64,000 nucleotides of DNA. It comes from a virus. Both the position numbers and the translations under genes were made by a program. Within the stretch, counting starts at the first letter, position 1, and the number at the start of each line of letters is the position of its first letter. The notes under the pieces were generated by a model. It worked only from the letters and a program-made list of their open reading frames with translations, made no database searches and was not told the DNA's origin. Location: IMG/VR virus record IMGVR_UViG_3300031758_000040, positions 1 to 64,000 of that record; one strand, written 5' to 3'. Positions 2,845 to 9,142 of the stretch are shown here, one piece after another.

Positions 2845-2921
<77 letters not shown>

Positions 2922-3002
2922 AGTGTCAGTATTCCCTGAAGTCGTAATACGCCCCCAAAGTACTGGTCTCGGCAGGCAGTTCGCGACTGGTCCTGCCCAA
3001 AT

Positions 3003-3084
3003 GCACAAGTGATGGAATTGGTAGACATGCTAGACTTAGGATCTAGTGCCGAGAGGCGTGAGGGTTCGAGTCTCTCCTTGTGTA
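3003..3084 (+). tRNA. tRNA-Leu (UAG)
   Basis: Class II cloverleaf: acceptor GCACAAG with CTTGTGT, Leu-type D arm GATGGAATTGGTAGACATGC, anticodon stem-loop CTAGA-CTTAGGA-TCTAG with anticodon TAG, long variable arm and T arm GAGGG-TTCGAGT-CTCTC. No CCA is encoded. A GC hairpin at 2971-2997 (GGCAGG..CCTGCC) separates it from tRNA-Arg and may be a processing signal. Confidence 0.9.
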
Positions 3085-3111
3085 CTCCAGGTAGTTTTGT
3101 ACCTTCGTCGA

Positions 3112-3120
3112 GATAAATAA
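3112..3120 (+). promoter_or_regulatory. Late promoter GATAAATAA
   Basis: Exact GATAAATAA, 18 bases before the GIY-YIG gene start. Confidence 0.6.
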
Positions 3121-3138
3121 TCAAAACGAAGGTACATT

Positions 3139-3771
3139 ATGCCTAGAAAAGAAAATATCTATCACTATATCTACAGGGTAACGTGTTTGATAAGTAAAAA
3201 ATATTACATCGGAATGCATTCAACTTCTAATTTAGAAGATGGATATTTTGGGAGTGGAAAGGTTCTAAAGAGATCCTTAAACAAATACGGAAAGGTAAAC
3301 CACACAATTGAAATATTGGAATGGCTGCCTGATCGAAGTTCTTTGAAATTAAGAGAAAAAGAGATAGTGAATGAAAGTTTGCTTAGAGATGAAATGTGTA
3401 TGAACTTGCAACTTGGTGGAGGTGGAGGATTTTGTAATGACGAACACAGAAAAAAGGCACTAAAATCTAGTAGAAAATCATATATCAACAGATTAAAAAA
3501 CGATAAAGATTTTTTTAAAAAAATATCTGATTCTAAAATTTCAAATAATTTAGGTAATCAATATGCAATTGGTAATAAATCATTTTCAGGTAAATTTCAT
3601 TCAGAAGAAACAAAAAGAAAAATAGGAGAATCTAATTCTTCTAAACAAAAAGGCTTCAATAACTCTCAATATGGAACGTGTTGGATAACTAATGAAATTG
3701 AATCTAAGAAAATCAATAAAGGTGATACTATACCTGAAGGATGGAGATTAGGTAGAAAGATTAAGTATTAG
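3139..3771 (+). CDS. GIY-YIG homing endonuclease (Seg-like)
   Basis: The 210-residue protein begins with a GIY-YIG nuclease domain: YIYRVT near residue 10, KKYYIG near residue 20 and the glutamate-bearing helix LREKEIVNESLL. Its C-terminal half has a NUMOD-like DNA-binding segment (GKFHSEETKRKIGES) and a terminal GTCWITNEIESKKI motif. Free-standing members cut unmodified relatives and spread by gene conversion; T4 carries such genes among its tRNAs. The gene is clearly more AT-rich than its surroundings, which agrees with recent mobility. Confidence 0.9.
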   Translation: MPRKENIYHYIYRVTCLISKKYYIGMHSTSNLEDGYFGSGKVLKRSLNKYGKVNHTIEILEWLPDRSSLKLREKEIVNESLLRDEMCMNLQLGGGGGFCNDEHRKKALKSSRKSYINRLKNDKDFFKKISDSKISNNLGNQYAIGNKSFSGKFHSEETKRKIGESNSSKQKGFNNSQYGTCWITNEIESKKINKGDTIPEGWRLGRKIKY

Positions 3772-3813
3772 TATCTGGCTAGCCTAAGAGAGATTGAAAA
3801 AAAGCCCGTACAT

Positions 3814-3905
3814 AGTCAGGTTGGATACAAGGTCGGTTCGAGTCCGATGGCAGACATGGAAGTTGGGTAGCTCCCTGTATCAAGGTTCGATTCCTTGACT
3901 GACTA
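3814..3905 (+). ncRNA. tRNA-like element A
   Basis: The 5' AGTCAGG can pair with ACTGACT at the end, and a proper T arm (CAAGG-TTCGATT-CCTTG, 3881-3897) precedes it. The core is not canonical: GATACAAGG pairs with CCCTGTATC and encloses a second T-arm-like hairpin TCGG-TTCGAGT-CCGA. No anticodon arm is evident. It shares TTGGGTAGCTCCC with element C. Confidence 0.45.
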
Positions 3906-3987
3906 CTAAAGAGGTGGATACTTTGTATGTAGATGATTTCGTAAGACCTCGTCGTTGTGCACCGTTGACGAAGCCTCTTTTTAACAT

Positions 3988-4099
3988 AGTCAGGTGGCGG
4001 AATGGTAGACGCACGTGCGATGAGAGCTAGGCCAGCTCGCCTGTAAAACCAGTAAGTCGTTCGGTGGTATAAATACAGGTTCGAGTCCTGTCCTGACTA
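3988..4099 (+). tRNA. tRNA-like element B, isotype unclear
   Basis: The acceptor AGTCAGG pairs perfectly with CCTGACT, the D arm GCGGAATGGTAGACGC is Leu/Tyr-like, and the T arm is ACAGG-TTCGAGT-CCTGT. The 62 bases in between hold a GAGCT-AGGCC-AGCTC hairpin and a CTGTAAA stretch that would read as a Tyr anticodon loop, but no regular anticodon stem forms. It could be a tRNA with an insertion, a decayed tRNA or a stable non-tRNA RNA. Confidence 0.5.
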
Positions 4100-4162
4100 C
4101 TAAAATCCTGACACCGCTGCTTACTACAGCTTGAGGTTGACTGCTTGGAAAGACAAGCATAT

Positions 4163-4314
4163 GGCTCCATAATTGTTTTTGGGTAGCTCCCAATGCAGTG
4201 AGTGGGTAAATGATGACACTGAGTTTCACACTCCAAAATGCGCATTAGGAGATAAAAAAGGGTGAAGGTTTGTGTAAGTAATTTGCAAGGTGGGTTCGAT
4301 TCCCACTGGAGCCA
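4163..4314 (+). ncRNA. tRNA-like element C, oversized core
   Basis: The acceptor GGCTCCA pairs perfectly with TGGAGCC and the T arm is GTGGG-TTCGATT-CCCAC, but about 120 bases separate position 8 from the T arm. They include hairpins TTGGG-TAGCT-CCCAA and CAGTG..CACTG and no clear anticodon arm. Confidence 0.45.
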
Positions 4315-4334
4315 CTTATTTATATTTTTAAAGT

Positions 4335-4709
4335 ATGTTTATAGCAGTAGACTTTGACGGGACCTGTGTGACCCATGAATATCCACAGGTTGGAAAGAAT
4401 ATAGGAGCTGTTCCAGTATTACGAGCATTAGTCGAAAAGGGTCACCAGTTGATCCTATGGACAATGCGTTCCGATGAGGGACTCGCAGATGCAGTAGAGT
4501 GGTTTAGATCGAATGGAATCCAACTCTATCACGCGCAACGAAATCCTACTCAAGACCAGTGGACAAGCTCTCCTAAGTGTTATGCCCATGTCTACATTGA
4601 CGATGCTGCGTTGGGGTGCCCTCTTCGATTTGAGCCAAACTATTCAGACCGACCGTTCGTTGATTGGACTGAAGTTGAGGCTCAGCTTGTCTCTAGAGGA
4701 ATACTTTAA
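4335..4709 (+). CDS. HAD-superfamily phosphatase
   Basis: The 124-residue protein has the HAD signature DFDGTC near residues 6-11, with both catalytic aspartates, a threonine motif LWTMRS, and a late acidic motif YIDDAALGCPL. Small stand-alone HAD hydrolases of this size are common in phages; substrates are usually nucleotides or sugar phosphates but are unknown here. The gene lies between tRNA-like elements. Confidence 0.85.
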   Translation: MFIAVDFDGTCVTHEYPQVGKNIGAVPVLRALVEKGHQLILWTMRSDEGLADAVEWFRSNGIQLYHAQRNPTQDQWTSSPKCYAHVYIDDAALGCPLRFEPNYSDRPFVDWTEVEAQLVSRGIL

Positions 4710-4716
4710 ATATCTT

Positions 4717-4796
4717 AGTCGGGTAATGCGTAATGGGAAAGCGGTATCTCACCCTTAATGGTCGCATCGTCGCGGGTTCGAATCCCGCTCCGACTA
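4717..4796 (+). tRNA. tRNA-like element D, isotype unclear
   Basis: The acceptor AGTCGGG pairs with TCCGACT and the T arm GCGGG-TTCGAAT-CCCGC is perfect. At 80 bases the length suits a tRNA, but the only hairpin at the anticodon position is ACC-CTTAAT-GGT, too short and without a standard 7-base loop. TAA (Leu) is the nearest reading. Confidence 0.5.
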
Positions 4797-4858
4797 CGCA
4801 AAAAACACTGGACCGAGTTTCCTTACCTCATTTGAGATGGGTTTTACAAGTCCAATCG

Positions 4859-4932
4859 GGTCCTATAGCTCAGTAGGTTAGAGCAACTGACTCATAATCA
4901 GTAGGTCACAGGTTCGAGCCCTGTTGGGACCA
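4859..4932 (+). tRNA. tRNA-Met (CAU)
   Basis: Complete cloverleaf: GGTCCTA with TGGGACC, D arm GCTCAGTAGGTTAGAGC, anticodon stem-loop CTGA-CTCATAA-TCAG with CAT, and T arm ACAGG-TTCGAGC-CCTGT. Elongator Met and lysidine-modified Ile cannot be told apart here. The 5' boundary may be off by one base. Confidence 0.9.
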
Positions 4933-4937
4933 CACAA

Positions 4938-6140: not shown

Positions 6141-7784
6141 TTGGATTCGTTTCACAGGTTTGCATCATGGCTTGAGAGCAAGCTCTCGGATTTCAAAGTA
6201 TCTGGAACCATTGCTGCAATTATCATGGTATCATTCTTTACTTCAAAGACTTTAACTATTCTTGGAGTAATCAACAGTTCATATAACATAAGCGTATTTG
6301 AGTATTCATGTTTTATACTTTTCTGCTTGCCGGGATACTTTATTATAAAAAAATTCCTAGACACTCGAGAGTCCGTCGGTAAACATGCGTTAGAGGAATT
6401 TAGGTCTTTTGTAAACACCGCTGCACTAGTATCGATAACAGACTCAAAAGGAAAGATAACTTATGTGAATGACAAGTTCATCAAGGTTTCTGGATGGAGT
6501 CTAGAAGAAGCGACTGGTAAGGATCACTCGATAGTAAACTCAGGAGAGCAACCGGATGGGTATTGGGGAGAAATGTACAAGCAAGTACTTTCAGGAAAGA
6601 TATGGAACGACGTCGTTGCAAATAAAGCGAAGGACGGGTCGATATACTATGTCGATACTTATATTAAAGCTCTATTTGATCACGACGGAACTCTTGACGG
6701 ATTCATGTCTATTAGACAAGATGTGACTGAGCTCAAGAAAAGAGAGGTGGAAATTAGCAATAGAATGAATGCTATAAATAAGTCCAATGCGGTCATAGAG
6801 TTTGATTTAACTGGAAAAGTCATTTATGCTAATAATTTGTTTGTAGAAACAATGGGTTATTCTTCTCAAGAAGAGATTATTGGAAAACACCATAGAATTT
6901 TTATAGATGAAGATTATGCTAAAAGCGAAGAATATCGTCTTTTTTGGGAAAACTTAAAAAACAATGTCCTCTTTTCAGGAGATATTGTTAGAATTAAAAA
7001 GGACGGGTCACTAGTTCATTTACAAGCCACATATAATCCTGTCGTTGAGCTAGACGGAAGAGTATATCGTATCATGAAGATTGCAACTGATGTTACTCAT
7101 AACTATGAGCAGCAGAAAGAGATTGAAAAGAAGAACACATATCTTGAACATGCCGCTAAGATCCTTCGTCATGACATGCACAGCGGTATTAACACTTACA
7201 TGCCTCGCGGCTTAAGTTCACTTGAAAGACGAATGTCTGATGAACAAGCAAAAGAGCTTAAGATTGATGCACCATTGAGAATGATTAAGGAAGGTCTTCG
7301 GCACACCCAAAAAGTGTATAAAGGTGTTTATGAGTTTACTAATCTAGTAAAGAAAGACGTTGTTCTCAATCGCACTGAGTGTAATCTCAAGGCTATACTC
7401 GAAGACTATTTGTCTGCAACTGCATATCGACCTCAAGTAATCATCGAAGACTTAGAAACGGCGTCAGTAAATGAAGCTCTTTTCTGTACAGCGATAGATA
7501 ACATGATTCGCAACGGTCTTAAGTACAATGATAGTGATTCTAAAGTAGTTAAGATCTATCGCAAAGAAAACCAAATCTTTGTAGAAGATAACGGTAGGGG
7601 ATTAAGCTCAGAAGAGTTTAAGTATCTTTCACAACCATACACGCGTAAGGCTGGACAAAAAGAATCAGGAACGGGATTGGGACTAAACATTTGTATCGCA
7701 ATCCTAGAAGAGCATAAGTTTTCTGTGACTTGTGACAAAATGATAGAGGGCGGAACTCAACTAAAAATATCTCTTAATGAATGA
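6141..7784 (+). CDS. Membrane sensor histidine kinase, PAS-PAS-DHp-HATPase
   Basis: A 547-residue hybrid of sensing and kinase modules. Two membrane helices (about 22-45 and 52-70) have almost no periplasmic loop; PAS domains follow at about 90-200 and 205-325; a dimerisation helix carries RHDMH with the likely phospho-accepting His344; the ATPase domain has N box DNMIRNGLKYND, G1 box VEDNGRG and G2 box GTGLGLN. It should autophosphorylate in response to an intracellular PAS ligand and pass phosphate to the regulator three genes on. The start is TTG, chosen because it lies 17 bases after a late promoter and gives the tag-like DSFHRFASWLES. It overlaps the next gene by four bases. Confidence 0.93.
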   Translation: MDSFHRFASWLESKLSDFKVSGTIAAIIMVSFFTSKTLTILGVINSSYNISVFEYSCFILFCLPGYFIIKKFLDTRESVGKHALEEFRSFVNTAALVSITDSKGKITYVNDKFIKVSGWSLEEATGKDHSIVNSGEQPDGYWGEMYKQVLSGKIWNDVVANKAKDGSIYYVDTYIKALFDHDGTLDGFMSIRQDVTELKKREVEISNRMNAINKSNAVIEFDLTGKVIYANNLFVETMGYSSQEEIIGKHHRIFIDEDYAKSEEYRLFWENLKNNVLFSGDIVRIKKDGSLVHLQATYNPVVELDGRVYRIMKIATDVTHNYEQQKEIEKKNTYLEHAAKILRHDMHSGINTYMPRGLSSLERRMSDEQAKELKIDAPLRMIKEGLRHTQKVYKGVYEFTNLVKKDVVLNRTECNLKAILEDYLSATAYRPQVIIEDLETASVNEALFCTAIDNMIRNGLKYNDSDSKVVKIYRKENQIFVEDNGRGLSSEEFKYLSQPYTRKAGQKESGTGLGLNICIAILEEHKFSVTCDKMIEGGTQLKISLNE

Positions 7785-9142
7785 GACATCTTATTACTAT
7801 ATTAGTTGTATTTACTGCTCTAGTTTCATATGCACAGCCACCTGATAGTGTTACGATTGAGCTGGCTGATACTCTTGTTCTTAAAAGTGAGTCTAACTTT
7901 GGAGAAAAAGTCGGTCGATTTTTAGGAATAGACAATGACGAAGAAATCAAAAATCTTAAAGAGACAGTTGGCTACCAACAAGAATTGATTGAACAGCTTT
8001 CTTCGATGGCAACAGAGCCGGTAGTAATCATAAAAACTGTTCCTAATCTAGACGAAGCTGCTGCTGCTTCTCTTAAAAAGGACGCTGCATTCTTAGATAA
8101 TCTTCCAAGCACATATAATAGTTTGTCAAAGGGTGATTTAGCGAAGATCACAAAAGAGATAGACGACAAGATTATCGAATTGACTAAACATCGGGATTCT
8201 TTATTAAAAAATAAGGGATCTAATGAACTCATATCTGCAAAGAACAATGTGATTAACTCATTAGAAAGAGAGAAAAAAGTCATAAAGTTGTCCGGCGATG
8301 CAATTGACCTAGAAAACGAAAACGGCTCCTTAAATAGTAAAAACACTGAGTTAAAGGCGCAAGAAGACAGACTCAGAAAATACTTATATACTGCGTTAAT
8401 TTTTCTTACTCTTCTTATTCTTCTTATATCAGTTATTCTTCAGAGAAGAGCTATTAAGTCTAAAGACGGAACCATTGAAGAGCAGTTTGCAAACATCAAT
8501 AAAAAGAACACGTATCTTGAGTATGCAGCTAGACTTATTCGTCATGATATGCACAGCGGTATCAATACATATATGCCTAGAGGAATTAACGGATTAGAAA
8601 AAAGAATATCTCAAGAAGAAATGAAACAGGCTAAGCTTGATACTTCATTTAAGATGTTAAAAGAGGGCTTAGCTCACACCCAGAGAGTCTACACCAGCGT
8701 TTATGAGTTTACTAATATCGTAAAGAAGAATGTTATTCTAGAAAGGAAAAAAATAGACTTGACTGAACTAATAAATACTTTTGTGTCGACTACTTCTTAC
8801 TCTTCCCAAGTCGAGGTTGAGAAACTCATAGAAGCAGAAGTCAATTCAACTCTTTTCTGTAATGCAGTAGATAACTTAATCAAAAATGGGTTAAAGTACA
8901 ACGATAGTCAAGAAAAGAACGTTAGAATTTATATGAAAGGCAACGACCTGATTATACAAGACAACGGTCGAGGGTTGGATAGTAAAGAATTTGACAAGAT
9001 TAAATTAGCACACGCAGTTGGCGAAGATGCAGGACTAGGCATTAATATAAGTATTGCGATCTTAGAAGAACACGGTTTCAAGGTTTCTTGTGAGAAGGTT
9101 GAAACCGGAACAAAAATAAAAATAAGTATTAAAAATGATTGA
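7781..9142 (+). CDS. Second sensor histidine kinase with signal peptide
   Basis: 453 residues. A signal peptide (LITILVVFTALVSYAQ) leads to a periplasmic region of about 180 residues rich in coiled-coil heptads, then a membrane helix at about 202-220. The DHp helix RHDMHSGINTYMPRG (His255) is nearly identical to that of the upstream kinase. The ATPase domain has DNLIKNGLKYND and IQDNGRG; the last glycine box reads GEDAGLGIN instead of GTGLGLN. The two kinases are paralogues with exchanged sensor modules, one looking outward and one inward. The gene overlaps the regulator gene by eight bases. Confidence 0.93.
   Translation: MRHLITILVVFTALVSYAQPPDSVTIELADTLVLKSESNFGEKVGRFLGIDNDEEIKNLKETVGYQQELIEQLSSMATEPVVIIKTVPNLDEAAAASLKKDAAFLDNLPSTYNSLSKGDLAKITKEIDDKIIELTKHRDSLLKNKGSNELISAKNNVINSLEREKKVIKLSGDAIDLENENGSLNSKNTELKAQEDRLRKYLYTALIFLTLLILLISVILQRRAIKSKDGTIEEQFANINKKNTYLEYAARLIRHDMHSGINTYMPRGINGLEKRISQEEMKQAKLDTSFKMLKEGLAHTQRVYTSVYEFTNIVKKNVILERKKIDLTELINTFVSTTSYSSQVEVEKLIEAEVNSTLFCNAVDNLIKNGLKYNDSQEKNVRIYMKGNDLIIQDNGRGLDSKEFDKIKLAHAVGEDAGLGINISIAILEEHGFKVSCEKVETGTKIKISIKND

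Follow-up and report, generated by a model that had tools for sequence, protein, structure and literature searches.

Four tRNA-like elements, A–D, found in the tRNA cluster of a virus are phage RNA genes built on the end domain of a tRNA. B and D each represent a large family of their own; A and C are solitary. We have good confidence in the anatomy of these elements and families, in the exchange of B-family cores as cassettes and in the inability of the elements to decode. Together, they suggest an unrecognised, fast-evolving class of phage RNA.

The tRNA cluster and its four elements

The window, i.e., the whole stretch of 64,000 nucleotides that was analysed, comes from an IMG/VR virus record of 80 kb. 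Besides the elements A–D, the tRNA cluster of the window (2845-4933, + strand) contains three ordinary tRNAs and two ORFs, one for a homing endonuclease and a small HAD-like one, as follows.

2845..2921, +: tRNA-Arg(UCU), ordinary, control (ARAGORN; Rfam 68.2 bits)
3003..3085, +: tRNA-Leu(UAG), ordinary, control (ARAGORN; Rfam 51.5 bits)
3139..3771, +: GIY-YIG-type homing endonuclease ORF within the cluster (PHROG 314 homing endonuclease, 5e-36)
3814..3905, +: element A, 92 nt; acceptor 3814-3819/3899-3904 (6 bp), T arm 3881-3897, D arm and anticodon arm absent
3988..4099, +: element B, 112 nt; acceptor 3988-3994/4092-4098, Leu-like D arm 3995-4012, T arm 4075-4091
4139..4158, +: hairpin GACA-GCTTG-GAAAGA-CAAGC (stem-loop GCTTG-GAAAGA-CAAGC, 4143..4158), also seen in other phages shortly before such elements
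4163..4314, +: element C, 152 nt; acceptor 4163-4169/4307-4313, T arm 4290-4306, structured core of 120 nt
4335..4709, +: HAD-like/phosphoheptose-isomerase-type ORF between C and D (PHROG 1238 match)
4717..4796, +: element D, 80 nt; acceptor 4717-4723/4789-4795, T arm 4772-4788, member of a conserved-core family
4859..4933, +: tRNA with a CAU anticodon, ordinary, closing the cluster, control (ARAGORN; Rfam 75.1 bits)

The GIY-YIG-type ORF lies inside the tRNA cluster as SegB does in T4. Within the cluster, ARAGORN called only the Arg, Leu and Met tRNAs and rejected all four elements. These are not an assembly slip, since the virus is represented by a second contig (L001/L015), in which A–D have the identical sequence, with 99.98% identity over 14 kb. 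Two other regions of the window deserve mention. Upstream of tRNA-Arg, about 200 non-coding bases (2640-2840) exhibit long-range complementarity (CACAGAATA / TATTCTGTG) and are possibly another structured RNA. Two adjacent ORFs with histidine-kinase-like ends (6141-9142), one of them with PAS-like repeats, present ~72% DNA identity across 240 bp, which is unusual for a phage.

A first-pass annotation of the window had credited all four elements with a matching acceptor stem and a perfect T arm. The T arm is indeed a perfect 5-bp stem with a TTCGANT loop in A–D and the acceptor is paired at 7/7 positions in B, C and D, but that of A has 6 bp followed by a G/A mismatch. The 80-152 bases then given for the cores are the lengths of whole elements. 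The ends common to A and B, CATAGTCAGG...TGACTACTAAA, and the TTGGGTAGCTCCC common to A and C proved exact, and the reported lack of a normal anticodon arm was borne out by the ARAGORN rejections and by the Rfam tRNA covariance model, which recovered no conventional cloverleaf. This model matched B only with the anticodon arm skipped (39.9 bits), scored D just below the cut-off of 29 (27.8 bits) and gave no match to A or C. ARAGORN and Rfam together thus rule out conventional cloverleaf tRNAs. As candidate tmRNAs, A–D were also rejected: Rfam matched only the T arm of C (15.5 bits) and ARAGORN found none.

Inside A, a helix GATACA/TGTATC (3824-3829/3876-3881) overlaps the first T-stem base. 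The element also has a second, internal T-arm-like hairpin (3832-3848) and the hairpin GGGTAGCTCCC (3865-3875), which is common to A and C; the hairpin TTGGGTAGCTCCCAA of C (4179-4193) occurs in A as well. The hypervariable core of B lies at 4013-4073, inside a constant frame. The core of D is formed by a closing stem (4726-4730/4763-4767), an inner hairpin (4734-4737/4748-4751) and a CC/GG pair (4753-4754/4760-4761). Single-sequence folding of A–D gave uninformative z values of -0.4 to -1.4. A chance origin is excluded: across related loci totalling 1.32 Mb, a generic detector of T arm plus acceptor found 405 elements, versus 0.67 in shuffled sequence; 220 of the 405 are not ARAGORN tRNAs. 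No relatives of A or C were found in IMG/VR, where both are known from this phage alone, and none of the core of B, which is particular to this phage.

A tRNA-type signature at the 3' end

In all seven tRNA-type genes of the window, a C directly follows the discriminator, and each of A–D also has a U at position -1. Ordinary tRNAs of the related loci present this C in 111/111 cases, mostly with no further CCA, and a U at -1 in 71%. Among elements with the frame of B that were not selected for these features, the C is found in 124/127 and the U in 105/127. As the C follows the discriminator in elements and ordinary tRNAs alike, tRNA-type 3' maturation is likely, and the elements likely enter the tRNA maturation path, for which this signature is the strongest indication from sequence.

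The B family: a constant frame around a hypervariable centre

A scan of IMG/VR with a pattern made of both ends of B and a free centre of 60-90 nt retrieved at least 119 stretches sharing the frame. In a GTDB-based collection of 84,980 species genomes, the pattern occurred in only two contigs, both from Bacteroidota MAGs, so that it is nearly absent from bacterial genomes. Based on these two contigs and on cultured Tenacibaculum phages, the hosts of the phages carrying the B and D families probably belong to Bacteroidota. Among the matches listed, 199 distinct elements form ~152 core clusters, 119 of them single, and up to nine frame elements are found per contig, amid ordinary tRNAs. The orientation of the elements mostly matches that of neighbouring genes (641 vs 120). 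They are spread across phages with differing gene neighbourhoods and have no common neighbour gene, the commonest gene family adjoining only 13 loci.

The constant frame consists of the AGTCAGG acceptor, the Leu-like D arm and the T arm. Information content amounts to 1.4-2 bits in acceptor and T arm and to 0.8-1.9 bits for most of the first 18 positions, against 0.01-0.2 bits in the centre; this frame conservation is only partly free of selection, since the scan pattern fixed some frame positions, leaving D-arm positions 14-18 and T-stem positions -26 to -23 free, and not the acceptor. Conservation stops at the mature tRNA ends, falling off within a few bases outside the RNA, and on the inner side of the D and T arms it falls at once to background level. 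Several frame elements have compensated acceptors (AGTGCAG/CTGCACT, AGTTAAG/CTTAACT, AGTTAGG/CCTAACT, GACCGGG/CCCGGTC, TGTAGTG/CACTACA). Some frame elements carry a D-loop insertion of 20-35 nt, in some cases capable of hairpin formation, although their core occurs elsewhere without it (L044 1581-1694(-); L059 8408-8534(-); L052 7138-7260; L078 9976-10089).

The B-family cores fold slightly better than their shuffled counterparts (mean z -0.68 +/- 0.08) and present longer helices adjoining the T arm. The best subfamily, A2, comprises five sequences whose core forms an H-type pseudoknot. Of its cells, 99.3% are paired, versus 29-43% in slid controls, and five pairs show two-sided changes. Similar compensatory changes were noticed by eye, unscored, in the clusters L058/L033, L106/L075 and L103/L132. 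Over the whole set of cores, pseudoknots are genuinely but modestly enriched (mean z 0.54; 18% at p<=0.05), so that a single common core fold is unsupported and folds may differ between cores. Antisense matches of the cores to their own contig are not enriched and yielded no target; an excess of sense 12-mers in the same comparison might be due to related elements that share the locus. One core of 118 nt compared with 295 genomes of the host class gave nothing beyond one chance-level 26-nt match.

The D family: a conserved core with variable ends

Relatives of D were found on 32 IMG/VR contigs. The 21 distinct sequences share one fold, in which the acceptor and the T arm are combined with a 5-bp closing stem that encloses a small hairpin and the CC/GG pair. 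All cells are paired (483/483, compared with 31-43% in slid controls), with two-sided changes in 10 pairs and 57 cells. These changes are mostly located in the acceptor and T stem; inside the core, one pair of the inner hairpin shows covariation, with next to no variation in the closing stem. The core is thus conserved and the ends vary, the reverse of the B family. A covariance model of the family gives 83-96 bits to its members and at most 35.5 to ordinary tRNAs of 295 Bacteroidota-class genomes. No family member was found in these genomes, the best score of 35.5 bits being in the range of ordinary tRNAs.

Exchange of cores between phages

Elements of the B family are exchangeable RNA cassettes, whose core is replaced in place among near-identical phages. 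Between loci L029 and L133, the upstream flank is identical over 20/20 nt and the downstream flank at 93%, whereas the cores are unrelated; the same in-place swaps are seen in L020/L103 and in L146/L154/L168. Cores identical at 95-100% are also found between unrelated flanks (L037/L082, L051/L127 and L020/L044), the element of L044 having an extra D-loop hairpin. In a complete 60.9-kb podovirus, the core of L129/L133 sits in a frame with the acceptor changed to AGTGCAG/CTGCACT. In about 200 further element pairs, flank homology ends at the element on one side.

The number of cassettes varies as well. In five phages with the same downstream gene, the gap between the D element and this gene is devoid of B-type units in L155 and L158, has one in L146 and in L154 and has two in L168. 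Each unit follows the GACAGCTTGGAAAGACAAGC hairpin or a version one base pair shorter; L168 also harbors a leftover T arm next to its D element. In its general form, GACA-GCYTG-GAAAGA-CARGC, this hairpin exhibits compensatory stem changes and a constant loop, and many tRNA-like elements, as well as some genes or tRNAs, have it immediately upstream (L146 711; L168 8344; L108 982; L046 5133(-); L037 2144; L082 9483). It is possible that it acts as a processing or transcription signal.

Known systems and other odd tRNA-like genes

Compared with canonical tRNAs (RF00005), and class II tRNA-Leu in particular, the elements have the same acceptor (7 bp, 6 bp in A), D arm, 5-bp T arm, ends and encoded C after the discriminator, but have no anticodon arm and instead a hypervariable core of 25-120 nt that is often pseudoknotted. 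tmRNA (RF00023) similarly combines a tRNA-like end domain devoid of anticodon arm with pseudoknots; unlike tmRNA, the elements have no coding tag and a third of the length, and B possesses a D arm. A phage-encoded tmRNA (Rfam 73.1 bits) was observed beside tRNA-like elements at L083 5148-5525. YrlA and bacterial Y RNAs (RF02553) are non-coding RNAs with tRNA-like T-arm and D-arm modules, but their T arm precedes the D arm and they have a Ro-binding stem, whereas the order in B is acceptor-D-core-T; a weak Rfam Y RNA match in the window spans two genes. In phage phiTE, pseudo-ToxI is a pseudoknotted RNA that evolves through expansion and recombination (PMC3475682). A pseudoknotted unit was found here in one B subfamily; pseudo-ToxI differs by its tandem 36-nt repeats and the absence of a tRNA frame.

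The parallel drawn earlier with two stable RNAs of the T4 tRNA cluster is apt for one of them, species 1 RNA (RNAC), but not for RNAD, which is without an obvious T arm. RNAC, listed without known function (PMC9697503), is a small stable non-tRNA RNA in a phage tRNA cluster holding a GIY-YIG homing endonuclease. It carries at its end a perfect T arm, CCGGGTTCGAATCCCGG (CCGGG-TTCGAAT-CCCGG), has an imperfect acceptor (5/7) and forms no cloverleaf. On the other hand, it is one RNA in one phage group, for which a hypervariable core or cassette arrays are undescribed, and its middle is unrelated to A–D. Across the T4 region, the D-family model hit ordinary tRNAs only (at most 21.6 bits) and no homologue of the family.

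Among cultured phages, Tenacibaculum phage pT24 has a tRNA-Sup and two tRNA-Undet genes. The latter (L172 6033-6111 and 6400-6478) are nearly identical and have an extended anticodon arm, TTCG/CGAA plus GGGT/ACCC with the loop ATATT. In Tenacibaculum phage Gundel_1, a gene labelled tRNA-OTHER is accompanied by a 110-nt one labelled tRNA-Tyr, which has two T arms, as does element A. Other unusual genes were noticed in the related loci. A further family of 155-168 nt has tRNA ends, a 5/7/5 hairpin with the loop TCGTCT(A/C) and a conserved GGGTTGACCACAAAGCCGGC within a giant variable arm (L021 5302-5469(-); L027 836-992; L083 4646-4801; L111 11116-11270(-)), and a third conserved non-cloverleaf family of 104-105 nt is marked by CCATTCTTAGTGTTATGTGG... 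(L017 841-945(-); L113 2724-2828; L085 5882-5985(-)). In the 735-kb phage LR756501, a 118-nt tRNA-like gene (L174 4864-4981) has good D and T arms and, close to the anticodon arm, ~45 additional bases; it resembles an interrupted tRNA.

Alternative explanations

Of the three readings put forward in the first-pass annotation, that of tRNA-mimic RNAs is supported and extends to large families. Interrupted or intron-containing tRNAs, whose decoding would be restored once the core is removed, would account for the tRNA-like ends, and tRNA introns can occur in phages. Yet the exon halves of an anticodon arm are not kept next to the D or T arm, because conservation collapses immediately inside both, and potential anticodon-stem pairs, like complete 5/7/5 arms (5-bp stem, 7-nt loop) in B-family cores, are no commoner than in shuffled sequence. 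With cores that are unrelated, 25-120 nt long and in many cases far too short for a group I intron, this reading is extremely improbable. The third, decoys for tRNA-cleaving defences, is divided: elements without an anticodon loop are unlikely decoys for anticodon nucleases, whereas decoys for another RNA-binding or RNA-cutting defence are possible. Decaying tRNA pseudogenes might be expected where phage tRNA clusters gain and lose tRNAs, and the leftover T arm of L168 would fit; however, compensatory changes in acceptor, T stem and core, conserved ends, the same core in distant phages and systematic multiplication in arrays make decay very improbable.

It is also unlikely that the tRNA frame is kept mainly as a short repeat for exchanging neighbouring DNA, with the cores as by-products. 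The ~200 pairs whose flank homology ends at the element and the several frame copies per genome speak for such recombination handles, but plain repeats would need neither compensated acceptors nor tRNA 3' ends nor covarying pseudoknots, and the D family preserves its fold and not the frame sequence. A link with translation appears doubtful too. Bacterial LeuRS recognises the discriminator and tertiary core and can dispense with the anticodon, so that elements with a Leu-like D arm, a T arm and an A at the discriminator (92%) might be charged and, by titration or modulation, act on aminoacyl-tRNA, EF-Tu or tRNA-modifying enzymes; this leaves hypervariable, swapped cores unexplained, and the D family and A are without the Leu-like D arm. 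We give similarly little weight to antitoxin mimicry, in which core pseudoknots would neutralise type III toxin-antitoxin or abortive-infection nucleases of the host, as does the pseudo-ToxI of phiTE. The covarying H-type pseudoknots of 30-60 nt in one B subfamily and the precedent of an RNA evolving by expansion and recombination (PMC3475682) are in its favor, but there are no tandem repeats of one unit, no toxin gene was found nearby, and the 118-nt core had only its chance-level match in the host-class genomes.

Proposed role and significance

Our preferred reading of A–D and their families is that the tRNA end domain (acceptor and T arm, in B also the tRNA-Leu-like D arm) serves as a base on which another structured module replaces the anticodon arm. 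Transcription would probably be shared with the phage tRNAs, and tRNA-maturation enzymes would probably trim the elements at either end, yielding stable RNAs unable to decode. In the B family, the hypervariable module passes between phages as a cassette, the constant frame possibly serving both as processing signal and as short handle for recombination, and the variable module may meet a variable partner from the host or a rival phage. A role in conflict is suggested because hypervariable modules swapped in place usually mark conflict, and by the phiTE precedent. As the most likely role, we tentatively propose that of stable RNA decoys, inhibitors or regulators with a variable module. With the same reserve, phages probably of Bacteroidota may hold a mobile repertoire of tRNA-framed cassettes, the constant shell providing maturation and stability and the interchangeable pseudoknotted core specificity against a changing partner from the host or a rival phage.

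No description of such elements was found in the literature searched, which consisted of open-access PMC papers. Standard annotation overlooks these genes, related odd ones being apparently labelled tRNA-Undet, Sup, OTHER or long tRNA in some cases. Since pT24 and Gundel_1 are cultured and carry related odd genes, expression is directly testable. The class gives a frame for the long-unexplained species 1 RNA of T4 and represents a natural use of the tRNA shell as a scaffold for exchangeable RNA modules. Given that variable modules swapped in place usually mark conflict, it would be a source of candidate anti-defence RNAs and, if the reading as a cassette repertoire is true, a phage lineage could retarget by swapping 30-60 nt.
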